From assembly GCA_009886815.1 (NCBI GenBank), contig QXYP01000262.1:1-12018 (forward strand): a DNA stretch of 12,018 bases, given 5' to 3'. This stretch comes from Halieaceae bacterium. Its GTDB lineage: Bacteria > Pseudomonadota > Gammaproteobacteria > Pseudomonadales > Halieaceae. The stretch's first letter is position 1. Each line of letters opens with the position of its first letter. The position numbers and the translations under genes are program-made. The notes under the pieces are model-generated. The model did not search any database, was not told where the DNA came from, and saw only the letters and a program-made list of their open reading frames with translations. This document shows, one piece after another, positions 4,997 through 12,018 of this stretch.

Positions 4997-5566
4997 ATGG
5001 CAGCCGATAAAAAGATCGAGATCTTGCGACACGCAATAGAGCTGATTGCCGACGAGGGTTACGGCAGTTTAAGCATGCGAGCCTTGGCAAGAGCGAGTGG
5101 AATGAAACTAGGTGCGCTGCAATACCACTTTCGAACCTGGGACATATTACTGACAGAGCTGGTGCATTACATTGACTCTGAAATTACCTCGGCGTTTGAG
5201 TCAGGTGGCTGGTCCGGTGATGATGCCTCCATTCGAGATTTGGTTGAATTTATGCTCGATGAGCATGTTGGCACGTTAGATGGGTTGTTTAGCGATCGTC
5301 TCTGGGCTCAATTGTGGGCGATGGAGCAGGTAGAGCCCCTCGTTTCCGACTTACTCGAGGATGTTTACGCCAAGTTCTTATTGATCTTGGAGACGAAAAT
5401 CGCGACCTACGGTGTCAAGCAGCCACGATCAGAGGCATTGGCCATTATGAGTATGATCGAGGGCGAATCATTATTCATGGGGGCAGGTCGCCGCTGGATG
5501 ACGGACCGATCATCGGTTCGCGAGGTGATTCTAAGTTTTGTCGCCCAGCGCTACTCACGCGCGTGA
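4997..5566 (+). CDS. TetR-family transcriptional regulator
   Basis: The 189-aa protein is a normal length for TetR regulators. The N-terminal DNA-binding domain is clear: helix 1 KKIEILRHAIELIADEGY (5-22), then the HTH SMRALARASGMKLGALQYHF (26-45) leading into RTWDILLTELVHYI. The remainder is an all-helical ligand-binding/dimerisation domain of no recognised subclass, with WAQLWAMEQVEPLVSDLL in the middle. It converges with the SpdH-like oxidoreductase gene (39-base gap). Its most obvious target is the divergent promoter about 2 kb downstream, which carries two TetR-sized inverted repeats. It would then act as substrate-responsive repressor of the oxidoreductase and of the TonB receptor operon. 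The ATG is chosen because the HTH starts at the usual distance. The Shine-Dalgarno is poor (GGGTAAACCCT upstream). The family is certain and the ligand unknown. Confidence 0.92.
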   Translation: MAADKKIEILRHAIELIADEGYGSLSMRALARASGMKLGALQYHFRTWDILLTELVHYIDSEITSAFESGGWSGDDASIRDLVEFMLDEHVGTLDGLFSDRLWAQLWAMEQVEPLVSDLLEDVYAKFLLILETKIATYGVKQPRSEALAIMSMIEGESLFMGAGRRWMTDRSSVREVILSFVAQRYSRA

Positions 5567-5587: not shown

Positions 5588-5607
5588 GACCGGATTAGGT
5601 CATTTTT
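5588..5607 (+). terminator. Weak intrinsic terminator candidate after the TetR gene
   Basis: GACC (5588-5591), a six-base loop GGATTA, then GGTC (5598-5601), followed by ATTTTT. The stem is only 4 bp, but its position between convergent genes and the T-run fit a terminator for the regulator. The T-run overlaps the TAA stop of the opposing oxidoreductase (5608-5606). Confidence 0.3.
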
Positions 5608-7525
5608 AGACCGTCTGCTCTTCGACAGCGCGATAGGCGGCGTCGAAGGCCGCATCCATCAGCGGCATTGCTTCCGAGTCTGTGTTGGCCACAGAGATAC
5701 GACCAAATTGTGCTCGACCAATTTCATGAGGCGCCTGTCCAGGCTCCCAGTCGGGGTCATCTAGCTTTACGTAGGGGTAAGCGTATCCGTGGGGTATTCG
5801 GTTGACCGTAATTGCCTGAATATCCGATGCATGATTAAAGCCATATTGCCCGAGCATCGATTGGAGTTGAGCCCGGATCTTTTGTTCGTAGTCCTCGAAA
5901 CGTGTGCTGTATATCTGCGTGCGAGCCAACCGAAGTTGATCTCGTACTGATACGCCCGCGTCGGGTGCGTCCTGTGACATTGGGGAATGCATCATAAACA
6001 TGACCATAGGGTCACTGGGACTCCGTGGAGGTTCATAGCCACCTACGCTCACCGTGGGCGCGCAGCTTACCCACTGAAAGGGGTCGTAAGGGCATTGAAA
6101 AAGCGTGGCGCCCGCCTGTGAAAAAGCCTCTCCATCACGAAGTTGCACGTTGGCGTAGACAAATGGGGTTTTGACGCCATACCGCAGACCCTCTTTTTGT
6201 GTCTCCGACATTTCAGGGCAGATATCAGGGATGAGACCGTTATAACAGGCCATGATGCAATGCGATGCGGTGACACGTTTGGCCTCTCCTCGCTCAACAT
6301 AGTCCACTTCCACTCTCGACGAAGGTAATTCTCTGACCCCAACCACCGTACTGTTAAGACGCAGCCGCACCCGATGATTCTCCCGGTCCAGCGCGTCGTA
6401 GTTGAATCGCGCTGCGACGATATTTTCCGGGCCCGTGGCCTCGGGTGCCGCCTCGGGAATCAAGTGTCGGACTAGTAAGCGGGCTACCGACGCATTTCCG
6501 TCAGGGAACATTCGTGTATACAGAAGACTGTCGAGAAAGGCGCCGCCCAGTTTGGCAGCAGTTTTGCCAAACCACCCCATCGACTTGATACCGCTCCCGC
6601 CGCCTAAGATGGCTTCGCCAACTGTTAAGTTCCAACCGGTCATACCACTGAGGTGGAGGATGATTGCATTGAGTATGGGTAGGGTAGAGGGTAATAAACC
6701 CACTCTATCGATTAGGTATTGGTTGTAGCTTACCGAGTTGATGTAGTCCCACTTCTCGCTCATGGATAGCTCATCTAGGAAATCTTGCTTGCCTCCCCAG
6801 AACGCGGTGAGTTTCCTCTTCTCGTCTTCTGGTAGGGGAAGGGATGCAATGACGTCGTCGTAACCGTCCGCGCCAAACATCACGTTATTCCAATTTCCAC
6901 TCACCATGGTATGACCGGCCTCCCCAGGAAGTGCCACACCGTTGTTGGCATCCAGATTCCCCACCAGAGCCAAGTCAGCGGCGGTGCGCTCGGCCATTAG
7001 GTCAAGGAAATCCTCATTGAGACCAATATCGCTCATTAGCTGGGCCGCTTCATCGCTGTAAGATAGCCACTCAATATTCTGAGCACCGCCAAGACTGACC
7101 ATCATTCGGCCGTCTTGATGAAACTCATTGCGTTTTGCATGCCCGCCAAAATCGTCGTGGTTGTCCAAAATAAGAATCCGCGCATCCGGCCCCATCTTTT
7201 TCTGAAAGAAGTGCGCAGCGGCTAAGCCGCTCATGCCTGCACCCACAACGGCAAGGTCGTAGTGTTCGTCCAGTGCCCGATACGCACTTGGTTTCTGTCC
7301 ACGCCAACTCAGGGCATGTGCGACCTCGTAGGAGCCCTCATGGCTGCCACGCATACCGGTCTCTGTGGGTGGGTAGTAGCCAGAGAAGTTTCTCGATTGA
7401 GGGCCCGGAAGTGCCGCTGTTTCCACCGGCGAAGTCGACTTTTTGTCGCATCCTCCGAGAAGCATTCCTCCAGCTCCTATAGCGATGCTCCCGACTAAAT
7501 CCCTGCGCGTAATTTTGTAGCTCAT
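5606..7525 (-). CDS. Tat-exported, lipoprotein-type FAD-dependent oxidoreductase, SpdH (spermidine dehydrogenase)-like
   Basis: The 639-aa flavoprotein begins KITRRDLVGS (4-13), a Tat twin-arginine motif with Arg7-Arg8. A glycine-rich hydrophobic segment follows, ending in the lipobox-like LGGC with Cys26. Asp27 at position +2 is, in E. coli, an inner-membrane retention signal. The mature protein has YPPTETGMRGSHEGSYEVAHAL (51-72), a conserved family segment, then the Rossmann fold DLAVVGAGMSGLAAAHFF (90-107, GxGxxG at 95-100) and ILILDNHDDFGGHAKRNEF (117-135) ending the beta2 FAD-ribose region. From memory this resembles the SpdH family, whose Pseudomonas aeruginosa member oxidises spermidine; I infer a periplasmic amine or related oxidase, substrate unknown. 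A paralogue lies at 11534. It is divergent from the membrane protein/TonB operon and shares its operator region. The ATG follows AAGGTTGACCA, with AAGG about 8 nt upstream. Confidence 0.88.
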   Translation of the reverse strand: MSYKITRRDLVGSIAIGAGGMLLGGCDKKSTSPVETAALPGPQSRNFSGYYPPTETGMRGSHEGSYEVAHALSWRGQKPSAYRALDEHYDLAVVGAGMSGLAAAHFFQKKMGPDARILILDNHDDFGGHAKRNEFHQDGRMMVSLGGAQNIEWLSYSDEAAQLMSDIGLNEDFLDLMAERTAADLALVGNLDANNGVALPGEAGHTMVSGNWNNVMFGADGYDDVIASLPLPEDEKRKLTAFWGGKQDFLDELSMSEKWDYINSVSYNQYLIDRVGLLPSTLPILNAIILHLSGMTGWNLTVGEAILGGGSGIKSMGWFGKTAAKLGGAFLDSLLYTRMFPDGNASVARLLVRHLIPEAAPEATGPENIVAARFNYDALDRENHRVRLRLNSTVVGVRELPSSRVEVDYVERGEAKRVTASHCIMACYNGLIPDICPEMSETQKEGLRYGVKTPFVYANVQLRDGEAFSQAGATLFQCPYDPFQWVSCAPTVSVGGYEPPRSPSDPMVMFMMHSPMSQDAPDAGVSVRDQLRLARTQIYSTRFEDYEQKIRAQLQSMLGQYGFNHASDIQAITVNRIPHGYAYPYVKLDDPDWEPGQAPHEIGRAQFGRISVANTDSEAMPLMDAAFDAAYRAVEEQTV

Positions 7526-7534
7526 TGGTCAACC

Positions 7535-7564
7535 TTGCCAGCATGTCAAATGACATGTTATAAC
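7535..7564 (+). promoter_or_regulatory. Candidate plus-strand promoter of the membrane protein/TonB receptor operon
   Basis: TTGCCA (7535-7540) and TATAAC (7559-7564) are spaced by 18 bp. The predicted start is near 7571, giving a leader of about 65 nt to the ATG at 7637. Operator 1 (7542-7557) occupies the spacer exactly, so a bound repressor would block RNA polymerase. Confidence 0.5.
7542..7557. promoter_or_regulatory. Operator 1: perfect 16-bp inverted repeat
   Basis: CATGTCA-AA-TGACATG has perfect 7-bp arms around a 2-bp centre. Size and symmetry suit a TetR-family dimer. It sits between the -35 and -10 of the plus-strand promoter. Its centre is 22 bp, about two helical turns, from that of operator 2. 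Confidence 0.7.
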
Positions 7565-7583
7565 CTGTCACTTGACATGTAAA
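7557..7583 (-). promoter_or_regulatory. Candidate minus-strand promoter of the SpdH-like oxidoreductase
   Basis: On the minus strand, TTTACA (7583-7578) and TATAAC (7562-7557) are spaced by 15 bp, somewhat short. Its -10 overlaps the plus-strand -10 in the central GTTATAAC, so the two promoters face away from a shared core. Operator 2 lies in this spacer. Confidence 0.4.
7564..7579. promoter_or_regulatory. Operator 2: near-perfect 16-bp inverted repeat
   Basis: CCTGTCA-CT-TGACATG repeats operator 1 with a single arm mismatch (CCT for CAT). The right half is identical to that of operator 1 (TGACATG). It falls in the spacer of the minus-strand promoter and over the predicted transcription start of the plus-strand promoter. 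Confidence 0.65.
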
Positions 7584-7636
7584 AGCCTTTGTCCGGGTTC
7601 AGAAAAGATTTAATAGGATACGGAGAATAAGAATAA

Positions 7637-8380
7637 ATGCAGAGCAACAGGTCGAACACTATGGTTGATGCATCATTTGATCGCAGTCTTAATCAATTCG
7701 GATTTTTCACGGTTATTCTGTGCATCCTTACAGGTTTTGCGGCGGCGCTACTTCCTTTGGATGCGCCCGCTGGAGCCAACGCGACAGACGCCGAGCGGCT
7801 GGCTTGGCTCACGGGAAATATGGGGTCGTTTGTCGCGGGCTGGGTGAATCAGATCATCGCAATGCTAAGCCTATCAGGCTTCTTTCTCGCTATTGCGTTG
7901 CGCGCCCGTCACGTTGCACCGCTAAGGGTGATCCTCGCTGTCGGCGCAGTGGCTATGGCCACTATGGCATTTGCAATTCCCAAGTTCATGGCAATTTGGA
8001 CAATTCCCATGTTGGCTGAGGCATCAGTCACCGGGGGCTCGGGTTCCAAAATGGCTGAAACACTACTCCCGCTGCTAAACGTGTCCATACCCTTTTCTCT
8101 GTATACCTCTTTCGATTACCTCGGATTTTGGCTTTACGCACTTTTTGCTGTCCTGATGATGGGCGCGGTAGACCGTGTGGACAGACTTTCAACCATTGCA
8201 GCTGCGTCGCTGGGCCTGTTTGGCCTGGGCTTTCACGTCGCTCTGATTTTGTTGCTCACCGGCGTGATTGGCGCTGCCGATATTGAGATCGTGTTTGGAC
8301 TCACATTCATACCCCTCCTCTTTTTACTGCTCGTCATGCTCGCCATTTTCAGGCGTGACCGAACACCTTTGGGAGGGTGA
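7637..8380 (+). CDS. Integral membrane protein of unknown family (6-7 TM), first gene of the operon
   Basis: The 247-aa protein is dominated by hydrophobic helices: about 20-40 (FGFFTVILCILTGFAAALL), 63-88, 95-124 (possibly two passes, broken by IPKFMAIWTIP), 148-178, 184-211 and 216-236. It ends in a basic, cytoplasmic-looking tail IFRRDRTPLGG. There is no transporter, kinase or cytochrome signature and no conserved His pair for haem. I do not recognise the family; a DUF4386-like protein is one guess. GGAG at 7622-7625 lies 11 nt before the chosen ATG. A second in-frame ATG at 7661 would remove eight polar residues and is possible. It follows the twin-operator promoter and is 85 bp upstream of the TonB receptor gene. 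This context suggests a role in the same process, for example inner-membrane electron transfer or transport, without proof. Confidence 0.85.
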   Translation: MQSNRSNTMVDASFDRSLNQFGFFTVILCILTGFAAALLPLDAPAGANATDAERLAWLTGNMGSFVAGWVNQIIAMLSLSGFFLAIALRARHVAPLRVILAVGAVAMATMAFAIPKFMAIWTIPMLAEASVTGGSGSKMAETLLPLLNVSIPFSLYTSFDYLGFWLYALFAVLMMGAVDRVDRLSTIAAASLGLFGLGFHVALILLLTGVIGAADIEIVFGLTFIPLLFLLLVMLAIFRRDRTPLGG

Positions 8381-8385
8381 CTCCC
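8371..8385 (+). other. Hairpin straddling the stop codon of the membrane protein gene
   Basis: GGGAG (8371-8375), loop GGTGA, CTCCC (8381-8385) form a perfect 5-bp GC-rich stem across the TGA stop (8378-8380). No T-run follows, so it is more likely an mRNA stability or processing element than a terminator. Confidence 0.35.
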
Positions 8386-8397
8386 CTAACTCGAGAG

Positions 8398-8415
8398 CGT
8401 CTACAGACGTCTACA
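8398..8415. repeat. 8-bp direct repeat with 10-bp period upstream of the TonB receptor gene
   Basis: CGTCTACA at 8398-8405 is repeated at 8408-8415, one helical turn apart. The junction contains the palindrome AGACGTCT (8405-8412). It could be a protein-binding site giving the receptor gene separate control, or chance. Confidence 0.4.
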
Positions 8416-8434
8416 TGGGGATGTGTTTACCCCA
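8416..8434 (+). other. Small hairpin before the TonB receptor ribosome binding site
   Basis: TGGGG (8416-8420) pairs with CCCCA (8430-8434) across a 9-nt loop. ATATTTTT follows from 8438. This resembles a weak attenuator between the first and second genes of the operon. Confidence 0.3.
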
Positions 8435-8451
8435 GCATATTTTTCCCTTGC

Positions 8452-8457
8452 AAGGAG
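8452..8457 (+). promoter_or_regulatory. Ribosome binding site that fixes the TonB receptor start
   Basis: AAGGAG lies 8 nt before the ATG at 8466. It selects this start over upstream in-frame codons reaching back into the membrane protein gene. Confidence 0.85.
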
Positions 8458-8465
8458 ATAAGACT

Positions 8466-10610
8466 ATGAAAAATATTAATAAAAAACAGATTTCTATTGT
8501 TATCGCGGTGTTATTCACAGCGAATTCCGCCTTCGCACAACTCGAGGAAGTGTTGGTTACGGCTCAGAAACGTGAGCAAAGCCTTCAGGAGGTGCCGATC
8601 TCGATCAGTGCTGTGAATGAGGAGCTGCTTGAGCAAACAGGCGTCAATACGATTACCGAAGTCATTCCGATGGTCGCTGGCTTAAGCGGTGCTGACTATG
8701 GTTTAGCGACCAACACCTGGGCCATTCGCGGTATTGGTAGTAACGACTGGACCATTGGTTCGGAACCCTCAGTCGGGGTGTTTATTGATGACGCTTACGT
8801 GGGCCGTAATATCTTTGCGACCAGTAACTTTTTTGATATCAATCGCATCGAGGTGGTGAAGGGTCCTCAAGGCACGCTTTTTGGAAGAAATGCGGCCGCA
8901 GGTGCGATCAGTTTGGTGACAAATAAGCCGGGTGATGAAGATGAGCTCCACCTCGGCTTGTCGATGGGTGACGAAGGTCAGCGGCGTTATGAGCTAGTGG
9001 GAAACTGGGCGCTCAGTGACTCGTTTGCATTGCGTCTCGCCTATCAAAACCAAAAGTGGGAGGGAATGTGGACCGAGGTAAACAGCGGTCAAGAAATGTA
9101 TACCGAGAGTGACGTACTGCGCTTATCGGCTCGGTGGGATATTTCTGACAGCCTCGAAGCGCTTTTTAAATACAACAAGGGCGATGCCGAAACAAACTAC
9201 ACCAGCGCTGTGAGCATCCTTACCAACCCGGCTCAACCGGGTGTTGAGTACCCGGATCGTTTTGCCATTAACCAGCCCAACTTTGAGCAAAATAAAGACG
9301 ACGGCTTTGGCTTGCGCTTGACCTGGTCGTTGAGCGAGTCACTGACCTTGGTATCGATAACAGACTCGCGAAGCGGTGAAAATGATTACTTTGAGGACGT
9401 TGATGGAACAGCCGACGATCTTACCATCGACGAGGCTGTCTTTGGCGTTCCTGGCGGGGCGGTGGGCGGTCTCGATATACCCGTGGGTCTCGGAGGTGAT
9501 GCCGACTCGTTTTATCAAGAATTTCGGTTGAGTGGAGGTTCCGAGGCCATCGACTGGTTCGCAGGCGTGAGTTATTACAGCGAGGATTTAGACAATTCCC
9601 GATGGGAAGTTGACTACGTAGCCACCGCGCTCGGTTTTCCGGTCGGAAGCCAACGCATCTCCAGCAAAGCAGAAAATGAATCAATGGGGATTTACGGCGA
9701 CATCACCTGGCAAGCATCTGATCAACTAGCACTGACCGCGGGCGCTCGATGGAGCTCCGATGATAAGGACTGGTGTACAAACACCTTACAGGATGATTTT
9801 GGTGAGGCTGGCGGACCGACGCCTGGCGAGCTGTGTGAGACAAAAGAATGGGATGAGCTTACCTCGCGCTTCATCGCTCAATACAACGTTAGTGACGCCA
9901 CAATGCTGTTCGCGAGCGTTTCGCAGGGCTACAAGGGTGGTGGTTTTAATACCTCAGTCGCTGACTTAGATGGTGATTTTATTGCCGAGACCATCATCGA
10001 TTTCGATCCTGAGACCAGTACTGCCTACGAGCTAGGCTTCAAGTCGACGATGATGGAGGGGCGGATGCAGTTAAATGGCTCGTTCTACGTTATCGACTAT
10101 GAGGCGCTGCAATTCGCGACTTTGACACTTGAGACGGGGCTACAAATCGCTAACGCGGGAGACGTCGACTCGCGAGGCTTTGAGGTTGAACTCAATTACG
10201 CGCCCAATGACAGCGTCCTACTCATGGCGAACTATGCGAACTCCGAAGCGGAGGTCGGTTCTGGAGTGCTCGATGGTCAGACCTTGGCGTACGCACCCCA
10301 ATCGACCTATTCGCTAGGCGCTATGATTGACCAACCCTTTGCCAGCGGCACTCTCAATTGGTTCGCCATGTACAACTACACAGGCGACTATTTCCATGAC
10401 ATGGATAACTTCTTGGAAGAGGATGGTTATGGGGTCATGAACGCCAAGGTTACCTACGTGCCCAGCAGTGAAGCCTGGGACTTCGCAATCGCAGTCGATA
10501 ACCTGACTGATAAAGATTACGCGACGCTACGGGGGGACTTTGGCTGGGGGCCTATGCTGCATTGGGGTTACAAGCGCATGATTAGAGCTGAATTGAACAT
10601 GCGTTTTTGA
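8466..10610 (+). CDS. TonB-dependent outer-membrane receptor
   Basis: The 714-aa protein has a Sec signal peptide (MKNINKKQ then a hydrophobic core, predicted cleavage after ANSAFA, Ala24), a TonB-box-like EEVLVTAQKR, and a plug domain (about 40-155) with RGIG, SVGVFIDDAYVGR and EVVKGPQGTLFGRNAAAGAI. The 22-strand barrel includes SVSQGYKGGGFNT and AVDNLTDKDYATLRG, and ends in the outer-membrane signature phenylalanine (ELNMRF). It uses TonB/ExbBD energy to import a ligand too large or scarce for porins. The ligand cannot be told from sequence; this broad class covers siderophores, steroids, glycans and others. The only two cysteines of the precursor, Cys437 and Cys457, flank an acidic, Gly/Pro-rich loop and could form an extracellular disulfide. 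The gene lies in an operon with the membrane protein upstream and the cupin 33 bp downstream. The in-frame extension back to 8268 is not used. Confidence 0.95.
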   Translation: MKNINKKQISIVIAVLFTANSAFAQLEEVLVTAQKREQSLQEVPISISAVNEELLEQTGVNTITEVIPMVAGLSGADYGLATNTWAIRGIGSNDWTIGSEPSVGVFIDDAYVGRNIFATSNFFDINRIEVVKGPQGTLFGRNAAAGAISLVTNKPGDEDELHLGLSMGDEGQRRYELVGNWALSDSFALRLAYQNQKWEGMWTEVNSGQEMYTESDVLRLSARWDISDSLEALFKYNKGDAETNYTSAVSILTNPAQPGVEYPDRFAINQPNFEQNKDDGFGLRLTWSLSESLTLVSITDSRSGENDYFEDVDGTADDLTIDEAVFGVPGGAVGGLDIPVGLGGDADSFYQEFRLSGGSEAIDWFAGVSYYSEDLDNSRWEVDYVATALGFPVGSQRISSKAENESMGIYGDITWQASDQLALTAGARWSSDDKDWCTNTLQDDFGEAGGPTPGELCETKEWDELTSRFIAQYNVSDATMLFASVSQGYKGGGFNTSVADLDGDFIAETIIDFDPETSTAYELGFKSTMMEGRMQLNGSFYVIDYEALQFATLTLETGLQIANAGDVDSRGFEVELNYAPNDSVLLMANYANSEAEVGSGVLDGQTLAYAPQSTYSLGAMIDQPFASGTLNWFAMYNYTGDYFHDMDNFLEEDGYGVMNAKVTYVPSSEAWDFAIAVDNLTDKDYATLRGDFGWGPMLHWGYKRMIRAELNMRF

Positions 10611-10643: not shown

Positions 10644-11513
10644 ATGACTAAACGACTGACGTTCATCCTTGTATTGGCGGTTACTTTAATGACTCCACTC
10701 TCACAAGCTGACTCCTCCATATTGCCACTTAGGACAGAGTCCTTAATGACGGAGCCACTGCAAGCATTGCCACCCTGGCCAGAAAGCATGCTGATATCCG
10801 GTGAAAGTGCTCATGGGCAAAAAGTGCTTCATGAGGGCGAGTTTGTTGTCGTCATTTACGAGTCAGTGCCTGCTGTTATCGGCATTAATGAGCCTTATCC
10901 GTACGATGAGTTCGTGCGGGTGCTCGAGGGGACAGTCGTCCTGACTTCCGTCGCAGGCGATCGTCAGGTCTATGGACCGAATGATCATTTCCTGGTGCCC
11001 AAGGGGTGGATGGGCACCTGGGACATGCCTACACCTTTTCGAGAGTTGGTTATTGTAGAGACTGCGGCGTGGAATCAAAGCGAGAGCACTATTGCTTCCA
11101 CGTTTGGCTCCAAACGCCCCACAGGTGAGGCTGACCCTGAGGTACTGCCCTTGCGGGTGGATGCACTGCTAGAAGATACCTTGGAAGCATTGCCACCGTG
11201 GCCAGAGGGTGTTGTTGTCGCTGGGGTGAATAAGCATGCCCAGAAGGTGTTGCATGAAGGGGAAGTGGTCGCCGCACTTTACGGTGCTGACGCGGCTCGT
11301 CTAACGGTGGCCGCACCGTTCCCCTACGATGAGTATGTCCTTGTTCTGCAAGGTCAGGTAGTTCTTACCTCCGAGGATGGCAGCAGTCAGACCTTTGGTG
11401 TCGGTGACGGCTTTCTGGTGCCAAAAGGGTGGACAGGCACCTGGGATATGCCTGAACAATACCTTGAAAAAATTGTTGTGGAGACTGCTGCTTGGAACGA
11501 GGCAGAGGGTTAA
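10644..11513 (+). CDS. Exported tandem cupin (bicupin, cupin_3/DUF861-like)
   Basis: The 289-aa protein has a signal peptide (MTKRLTFILVLAVTLMTPLSQA, likely cleaved after Ala22) and should be periplasmic. The mature part is two copies of one domain (27-147 and 168-288), each with LPPWPE, KVLHEGE, PYDE[FY]V.VL.G.VVLTS and FLVPKGW.GTWDMP. The last motif is typical of cupin_3, the family holding (S)-ureidoglycine aminohydrolase-like proteins. Cupin motif 1 lacks the usual His pair; the first metal-ligand region reads PYDEF or PYDEY. Metal binding may therefore use the conserved His of KVLHEGE and the acidic residues, or be absent. AGGAG (10633-10637) precedes the ATG. Tight spacing (33 bp to the receptor gene, 20 bp to the next oxidoreductase) makes it co-transcribed with both. 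Catalysis (isomerase/hydrolase) or ligand binding are equally possible. Confidence 0.87.
   Translation: MTKRLTFILVLAVTLMTPLSQADSSILPLRTESLMTEPLQALPPWPESMLISGESAHGQKVLHEGEFVVVIYESVPAVIGINEPYPYDEFVRVLEGTVVLTSVAGDRQVYGPNDHFLVPKGWMGTWDMPTPFRELVIVETAAWNQSESTIASTFGSKRPTGEADPEVLPLRVDALLEDTLEALPPWPEGVVVAGVNKHAQKVLHEGEVVAALYGADAARLTVAAPFPYDEYVLVLQGQVVLTSEDGSSQTFGVGDGFLVPKGWTGTWDMPEQYLEKIVVETAAWNEAEG
10722..11507 (+). repeat. Internal tandem duplication encoding the two cupin domains
   Basis: Bases 10722-11084 and 11145-11507 encode 121-residue units that align without gaps at about 55% identity (66 of 121 by hand count), separated by a 20-residue linker. KVLHEGE, LVPKGW and VETAAWN are identical in both units. 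The divergence indicates an old duplication that has been kept. Confidence 0.85.
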
Positions 11514-11533: not shown

Positions 11534-12018
11534 ATGAAAAAAGGCGTTAAACGAGAGATATCGCGTCGAGATTTCCTCGATGGTGTGGCTCTGGTGGCTG
11601 GTGGTCTGGCGCTCTCTCCCTTAAGCAGTTTGGCCGGCTCTGGTCAGACTTTTTCGCATGTGGGATATCCACCCTCGCTGACTGGGATGCGGGGTAATCA
11701 TCCAGGCTCATATGAAGTGGCGCACGCCTTGGCCCGACACGGACAGCGTCCGACCGACTTCGCACCCGTTGATATCATCTATGACTTGGTGGTCGTGGGT
11801 GCGGGTATCAGCGGCCTCACTGCAGCCTACCTCTATAAAAAACGCGCCGGGCCAGACGCGAAAATTCTGATACTCGACAACCATGATGACTTTGGTGGTC
11901 ACGCCAAGCGCAATGAGTTCTCTCTTGACGGTAGGACCCTACTGGGCGTGGGTGGAAGCCTTAACTTGGAGCAGGGAGCCATGGGCGATGCAGCTCTGGC
12001 GTTGCTCGAGGAGATCGG
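11534..12018 (+). CDS. Second Tat-exported SpdH-like FAD-dependent oxidoreductase, C-terminus cut by window edge
   Basis: The frame from ATG 11534 stays open to the edge for 161 residues. It starts MKKGVKREISRRDFLDG, a textbook Tat motif (SRRDFL, Arg11-Arg12), then a hydrophobic stretch without a lipobox Cys. It is therefore probably soluble in the periplasm. YPPSLTGMRGNHPGSYEVAHA, the FAD motif GAGISG (89-94) and LILDNHDDFGGHAKRNEF follow. Over about 103 aligned residues it is roughly 64% identical (hand count) to the oxidoreductase at 5606-7525, with LDNHDDFGGHAKRNEF identical. The family is the same SpdH-like group, usually about 620-640 aa, so most of the protein lies beyond the window. 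AGGGTG (11520-11525) is 8 nt upstream of the ATG, and the cupin gene ends 20 bp before it. It is the fourth gene of the operon. The substrate is unknown; an amine is inferred from family resemblance only. Confidence 0.88.
   Translation, partial: MKKGVKREISRRDFLDGVALVAGGLALSPLSSLAGSGQTFSHVGYPPSLTGMRGNHPGSYEVAHALARHGQRPTDFAPVDIIYDLVVVGAGISGLTAAYLYKKRAGPDAKILILDNHDDFGGHAKRNEFSLDGRTLLGVGGSLNLEQGAMGDAALALLEEI

Follow-up and report, generated by a model that had tools for sequence, protein, structure and literature searches.

Gene context and the paired repeats

The gap between two divergently transcribed genes of a Halieaceae bacterium raises the question of which regulator acts there, and through what arrangement of operators and promoters. 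Within the window (the whole stretch of contig QXYP01000262.1 that was analysed, 12,018 nucleotides), a 111-base gap separates the leftward gene OXR1 from the rightward gene MEM and contains a 38-bp element (7542-7579) composed of two inverted repeats, operator 1 and operator 2, whose centres lie 22 bp apart (Table 1).

Table 1 Features of the window, listed by coordinate
Feature	Coordinates	Strand	Remarks
TetR-family regulator	4997-5566	+	Pfam TetR_N; convergent with OXR1; proposed binder of both operators
OXR1, Tat-type FAD oxidoreductase, SpdH-like	5606-7525	-	Pfam NAD_binding_8
Rightward -35-like box TTGCCA	7535-7540	+	original prediction; letters confirmed
Operator 1	7542-7557	.	CATGTCAAATGACATG; perfect 7+2+7 inverted repeat
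Leftward -10 box TAACAT	7555-7560	-	best reading, TTTACA-17-TAACAT; 9/12 matches; predicted start ~7548
Leftward -10 box TATAAC	7557-7562	-	alternative (original prediction), 15-bp spacer; letters confirmed, spacing less usual
6-bp spacer TTATAA	7558-7563	.	between the operators; holds the centre of both promoters
Rightward -10 box TATAAC	7559-7564	+	18 bp from TTGCCA
Rightward -10 box TAACCT	7561-7566	+	alternative in the conserved frame
Operator 2	7564-7579	.	CCTGTCACTTGACATG; arms with one mismatch
Leftward -35 box TTTACA	7578-7583	-	overlaps the outer edge of operator 2
MEM, membrane protein	7637-8380	+	first rightward gene; no Pfam or NCBIfam match
TonB-dependent receptor	8466-10610	+	ATG start at 8466 assumed
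Double cupin protein	10644-11513	+	EutQ-like Cupin_3 (Pfam)
OXR2, second SpdH-like oxidoreductase	11534-12016	+	gene cut by the window end

Residues 49-636 of the OXR1 protein align with the spermidine dehydrogenase SpdH (PDB 7d9f; E 2e-111), a similarity that extends over the full length; by sequence the protein is SpdH-like, and spermidine oxidation is its putative activity. The gene cluster as a whole probably serves amine breakdown, with oxidation and uptake. The listed reading frame of the TonB receptor (8268-10610) begins at a TTG codon and overlaps MEM, and the ATG at 8466 is the likelier start. The usual order in many relatives is OXR1 to the left of the element and tetR, MEM, (TonB receptor), cupin and OXR2 to its right, an arrangement under which the repressor would be autoregulated. 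In the genus of the window tetR is placed behind OXR1 instead, and no operator was found upstream of the tetR gene in the window, where the best match had four mismatches; autoregulation of tetR seems to have been lost in the lineage.

The two 16-bp repeats had been noticed in an earlier reading of the same DNA (the original prediction), and re-reading the letters in the window confirmed the repeats, their coordinates and the 22-bp spacing of their centres, as well as the letters of all four promoter boxes that it had named. A scan of the window with the motif (up to three mismatches) returned two matches, a number reached by 26 of 200 shuffled sequences; taken alone, the window makes a modest case against chance. 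The whole genome contained the motif (up to two mismatches) in 12 places, three of them exact, with none in the reversed control, and included a second pair at 22 bp (C177:4921/4943), situated between OXR1-like and MEM-like genes at the head of a paralogous gene row. Chance inverted repeats were ruled out by the data from relatives (a 390-genome scan, 80 TetR loci and 196 relatives) and not by the window scan: the pair of operators at 22 bp, hereafter the twin, was present with up to two mismatches in 22 of 196 relatives and in 0 of 196 controls.

The motif follows a TetR-family protein across genomes

The regulator encoded beside OXR1 scored 35.3 bits against the TetR_N helix-turn-helix model (PF00440; Pfam cut-off 24), and its predicted structure is an all-helical TetR fold (pLDDT 89.4). 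The top 50 Foldseek matches listed were all TetR-type or transcriptional regulators, and the EilR-DNA structure 5vl9 is among the fold matches. A stretch of the helix-turn-helix, LGALQ(Y)H, is invariant or nearly so across 29 aligned relatives. By the TetR protein, the nearest named relative in the genome collection is a Luminiphilus MAG (L093; 93%).

Loci were gathered using the TetR alignment as the sole query, and the best 80 of 93 confirmed loci (766,576 bases) were analysed. Exact copies of the motif, CMTGTCRNNYGACAKG, occurred at 109 sites in 67 of these best 80 loci, and at none in the reversed control. Sites no more than 100 bp apart formed 33 pairs, 29 of them at 22 bp, and 27 sites stood alone. 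When the gap between two copies was left free (0-30 bp) in a scan of 390 genomes of the order, six places in five genomes were found, always with a gap of 6 bp (control, 0). Across the 196 relatives, the twin was present in 19 of 24 genomes with a TetR match better than 1e-35 vs 3 of 172 without one (p 5e-19 by a Fisher test that ignores kinship). A site with at most one mismatch was located within 150 bp upstream of the tetR relative in 44 of the best 80 loci; among OXR1-like genes, 34 of 39 had such a site in the 250 bp upstream. The first mapping of OXR1/MEM intergenic gaps showed the 22-bp pair in 10 of 10; the addition of L216, L221 and L225 brought the number of gaps with the pair to 13 loci, comprising 9 distinct 38-mers. 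Two copies of one palindrome between divergent genes are conserved together with the regulator, and the search of orthologous loci called for in the original prediction came out in its favour, the repeats being present there, tracking the TetR orthologue and often lying just upstream of its gene. Given the motif in TetR loci, the co-occurrence of twin and TetR match, and the sites upstream of tetR, the TetR protein of the window very probably binds the repeats.

Exceptions occur on both sides of this association. No site with up to one mismatch was found in 11 of the best 80 loci, among which L095 and L101 end inside OXR1 and L115 carries degenerate sites where sites are expected. The five of 24 TetR-bearing genomes that lack the twin comprise two that end inside OXR1, one with a single site, one with a 34-bp pair and one with an isolated tetR. 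The twin was found without a close TetR match in three genomes: G028, which is cut inside OXR1; G011, where the element lies 682 bases from the contig end beside a short OXR1 frame; and G044. The G044 twin is weak (L220 4899-4936; two mismatches) and adjoins a Rieske oxygenase gene. Isolated sites are weaker evidence than pairs because in the 196 genomes the reversed control of the single degenerate motif is not zero. Labels among the 80 records include Acidimicrobiales, Myxococcales, Spirochaeta and Alphaproteobacteria, a spread over phyla that is provisional since most records are metagenome bins.

Two proposed promoters arranged back to back around the operators

The 43 twins of the 80 loci are bordered on the outside by TTKA on the left (28 twins) and TMAA on the right (36 twins), and the inner flanks are never so. 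In the spacer, position 18 is T in 37 twins and position 21 is A in 39, with position 19 variable. This pattern fits two promoters of the form TTKACA-17-TAnnnT placed back to back, each with an operator in its spacer and with adjoining -10 boxes. The -35 box would be made up of the outer flank and the two operator bases next to it, and the -10 box would lie at positions 20-25 (TAgCAT), mirrored at 19-14, so that positions 21 and 18 would be the two -11 A's.

Single operators provided a separate view of the same frame. The analysis covered sites in the retrieved loci, and 21 of 35 single sites, near relatives included, were oriented by a one-sided -35-like flank. Left out of the count were the CACGTG-centred sites C74:807 and G016:C22:117527, because they sit beside AMP-ligase or amidohydrolase genes in a symmetric context of another kind, and C287:1, due to the contig starting there. 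TAnnnT was present at positions 20-25 in 15 of the 21 oriented loci (next best offset, 3), and the opposite -35 box (positions 37-42) was kept in 8 of the 21, no other offset having at least two. As these loci keep the -10 box, and some the opposite -35 box, without a second operator, the promoter frame can be separated from the operators and explains their 22-bp spacing. A longer operator that takes in the outer flanks (TTKA/TCAA) was considered and rejected: the inner flanks of the 43 twins never carry them, single sites are often without a flank (left TTKA 11/27, right TMAA 4/27), and the opposite -35 box persists in those 8 loci after the second operator has gone.

The original prediction had placed each repeat in the spacer of a promoter, which stands, and had drawn these promoters as TTGCCA-18-TATAAC (rightward) and TTTACA-15-TATAAC (leftward), whereas conservation favours 17-bp spacers and -10 boxes that adjoin. 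For the leftward promoter, conservation points to the same TTTACA combined with TAACAT, and TTTACA-17-TAACAT fits as the leftward promoter of this window. A promoter scan of positions 7000-8200 returned this one site against a shuffle mean of 1.0, i.e. chance level. The rightward side is less regular. Considered as a sigma-70 bidirectional promoter, the conserved frame is in line with expectation, and the rightward -35 box is degenerate in the window, where the conserved place (7538-7543) reads CCAGCA; because of this, TTGCCA-18-TATAAC may serve rightward here. Starts are predicted at 7571-7573 and 7548-7550, inside the operators.

It is quite possible, though the lesser chance, that this sublineage keeps the same repressor and operators and uses both promoters as originally drawn, whose -10 boxes overlap in GTTATAAC. 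TTGCCA matches in 5 of 6 positions, as does TATAAC, the conserved rightward -35 place is degenerate in L041 as well as in the window, and the close relative L093 has TTGTTA at the place of TTGCCA. The mean -10 match on the minus strand of 49 twins also speaks for this arrangement and against the 17-bp frame, at 3.37 for the 15-bp place vs 2.78 for the 17-bp place (3.2 vs 3.41 on the plus strand). Against it, position 19, which TATAAC needs, varies freely among the 43 twins, single-site loci carry TAnnnT far more often at the 17-bp place than at the 15-bp place (15/21 vs 2/21), and 15 bp is an unusual promoter spacer.

A proposed ligand-relieved switch

From the repeats, their geometry, their conservation and their co-occurrence with the TetR family, all computed directly, the 38-bp element can be read with considerable confidence as a TetR double operator inside a symmetric divergent promoter, at which a ligand would relieve repression of both arms; binding, repression, ligand and starts are the predicted parts of this reading. 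The leftward promoter would drive OXR1, and the rightward promoter the row of MEM, TonB receptor, cupin and OXR2. Each operator would occupy the spacer between a -35 and a -10 box, with the two -10 boxes adjoining at the centre, and a dimer on either operator would cover the spacer of one promoter plus the predicted start region of the other. Two TetR dimers would in this way shut both arms, and the repressor would come off on binding a ligand derived from the substrate, perhaps an amine.

A variant in which TetR represses one arm and activates the other, or in which two dimers bind cooperatively as one unit, is unlikely. The 22-bp spacing is about two helical turns and would set the dimers on one face, and the exact sites include two pairs at 34 bp, roughly a further turn; these points are offset by the 27 single operators and by the promoter frame, which accounts for the 22 bp by itself. 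TetR-family regulators are mostly repressors, which counts against activation.

Binding of the repeats by a different regulator, with TetR merely travelling with the gene cluster, would account for the loci where the motif has no adjacent tetR and for the three genomes with a twin and no close TetR match. This has a very low probability, given that a query with TetR alone recovered loci that mostly carry the motif, that in 44 of 80 loci tetR has the site immediately in front of it, also where the neighbouring genes differ, and that no site with up to three mismatches was found in the loci of six distant TetR matches (25-30% identity). A hairpin or terminator is barely credible and was dropped: the 38-mer is symmetric at 17 of 19 positions in the window, a figure that rises to 18 in several relatives, but it lies upstream of both genes, a terminator scan found none there, the predicted starts inside the element mean that neither RNA would contain the whole palindrome, and single operators occur elsewhere.

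For the proposed repressor, the SpdH-like OXR1 suggests an amine as ligand. Weaker hints come from the nearest sequence and fold matches of the TetR protein, which include 4kwa (with choline) and 4jnn and 4nel (amine-type ligands), and from a glutamine-synthetase-like gene under a twin in genome G187; this gene reaches neither the cut-off of the glutamine synthetase model nor that of the gamma-glutamylputrescine synthetase model.

Apparent mirror-image co-variation between operator centres

The mirror set consisted of the window element (7542-7579) and those of L041, L042, L043, L046-L049, L053, L067, L216, L221 and L225, giving 9 distinct Luminiphilus elements. In these, the four central bases of operator 1 and the reverse complement of their counterparts in operator 2 agree at 31 of 36 positions, against a mean of 20.7 in permutations that ignore kinship (31/36 reached in 2 of 5000 and 0 of 5000 in two runs). 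In direct orientation the same nine elements agree in 8 of 36 positions (mean 10.4). The 41 other twins show mirror agreement in 87 of 164 positions (mean 70.4; 14 of 5000 permutations, kinship ignored). The centres differ between elements of one genome, indicating that they are not imposed by the specificity of the repressor. Template switching between the arms of a quasipalindrome is a known mutation route, and is a candidate explanation for the co-variation. If real, the co-variation would exemplify concerted evolution acting locally on regulatory DNA. A broader interpretation, offered tentatively and more doubtful than not, is that the element works as a bidirectional promoter of modular and symmetric build, gated by a repressor and with a fixed geometry that accommodates one operator or two in its spacers. 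This promoter would have spread with TetR through many marine lineages, and in the genus of the window its halves would evolve in concert as mirror images through template switching.

Relation to known systems

Paired operators under TetR-family repressors are already known from tet, EilR and BkaR, and the principle is covered by the accounts cited here. In Tn10 tetR/tetA, a TetR dimer acts at two operators (tetO1/tetO2) that overlap divergent promoters, and both genes are repressed (PMC3037858). In that account the regulator is one of the divergent genes, with two promoters, whereas tetR of the window is found 3' of OXR1 and has no operator; the two systems differ as well in operator sequence, in the genes regulated and in the 22-bp spacing seen here. 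A regulator that forms one autoregulated divergent arm, as in Tn10, is not seen in the window and, judged by position, is present in many relatives (44/80). EilR of Enterobacter lignolyticus, also of the TetR family, has a pair of palindromic operators in the space separating divergent genes, and one operator lies within both promoter regions; the operators are described as 24 bp long and placed 20-43 and 56-79 bp from eilA, and the genes concern efflux (PMC6127294). The fit of an operator into a 17-bp spacer, engineered for EilR in that report, is natural here. The mycobacterial TetR-type repressor BkaR likewise faces a divergent catabolic operon and has a 16-bp core palindrome twice in one intergenic region, and differs, as reported, in its motif (GTTA(N)T(N4)A(N)TAAC), its autoregulation and its branched-chain keto-acid genes (PMC3920632).

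Bidirectional promoters such as acrA/acrR resemble the predicted arrangement of the element in having opposed promoters, -10 elements at one centre and nearby starts (Warman et al. 2026, PMC12825309). Starts 10, 18 or 23 bp apart are given there, acrA/acrR has a TetR-family repressor, and the control of bidirectional promoters is said to have been wholly uncharted before that work (PMC12825309). The promoters of that report share a -10 region, whereas here a repressor site would fill each spacer, the -10 boxes adjoin in the best reading and the predicted starts are ~25 bp apart.

In the open-licence literature no paper on the motif or the regulator was found among the matches listed, and that literature seems to contain no description of the motif, of the subfamily of regulators or of the symmetric fit. 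An unnamed TetR subfamily would gain a defined operator, CMTGTCRNNYGACAKG, and target genes in abundant marine bacteria, and the element would also be a naturally occurring bidirectional promoter, symmetric and highly conserved, under a predicted repressor.

Further sites in the collected genomes

Genome G187 (L214, L215) contains five twin elements, located before SpdH-like genes, a TonB receptor and the glutamine-synthetase-like gene, and a larger regulon is one reading offered for them. Operator pairs 34 bp apart are found at L111 5933/5967 and L132 825/859, 12 bp beyond the usual distance, or about one helical turn. L066 (own contig C287) opens directly with a motif copy (1-16), and a TonB receptor follows 113 bases later; judging from L218, the copy is apparently the second half of a twin element. 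Sites reading CATGTCACGTGACATG, with a wider symmetric context, occur in two genomes between an AMP-ligase-like or amidohydrolase gene and its neighbour (L065 807-822, L224 4528-4543), and possibly belong to another regulator.
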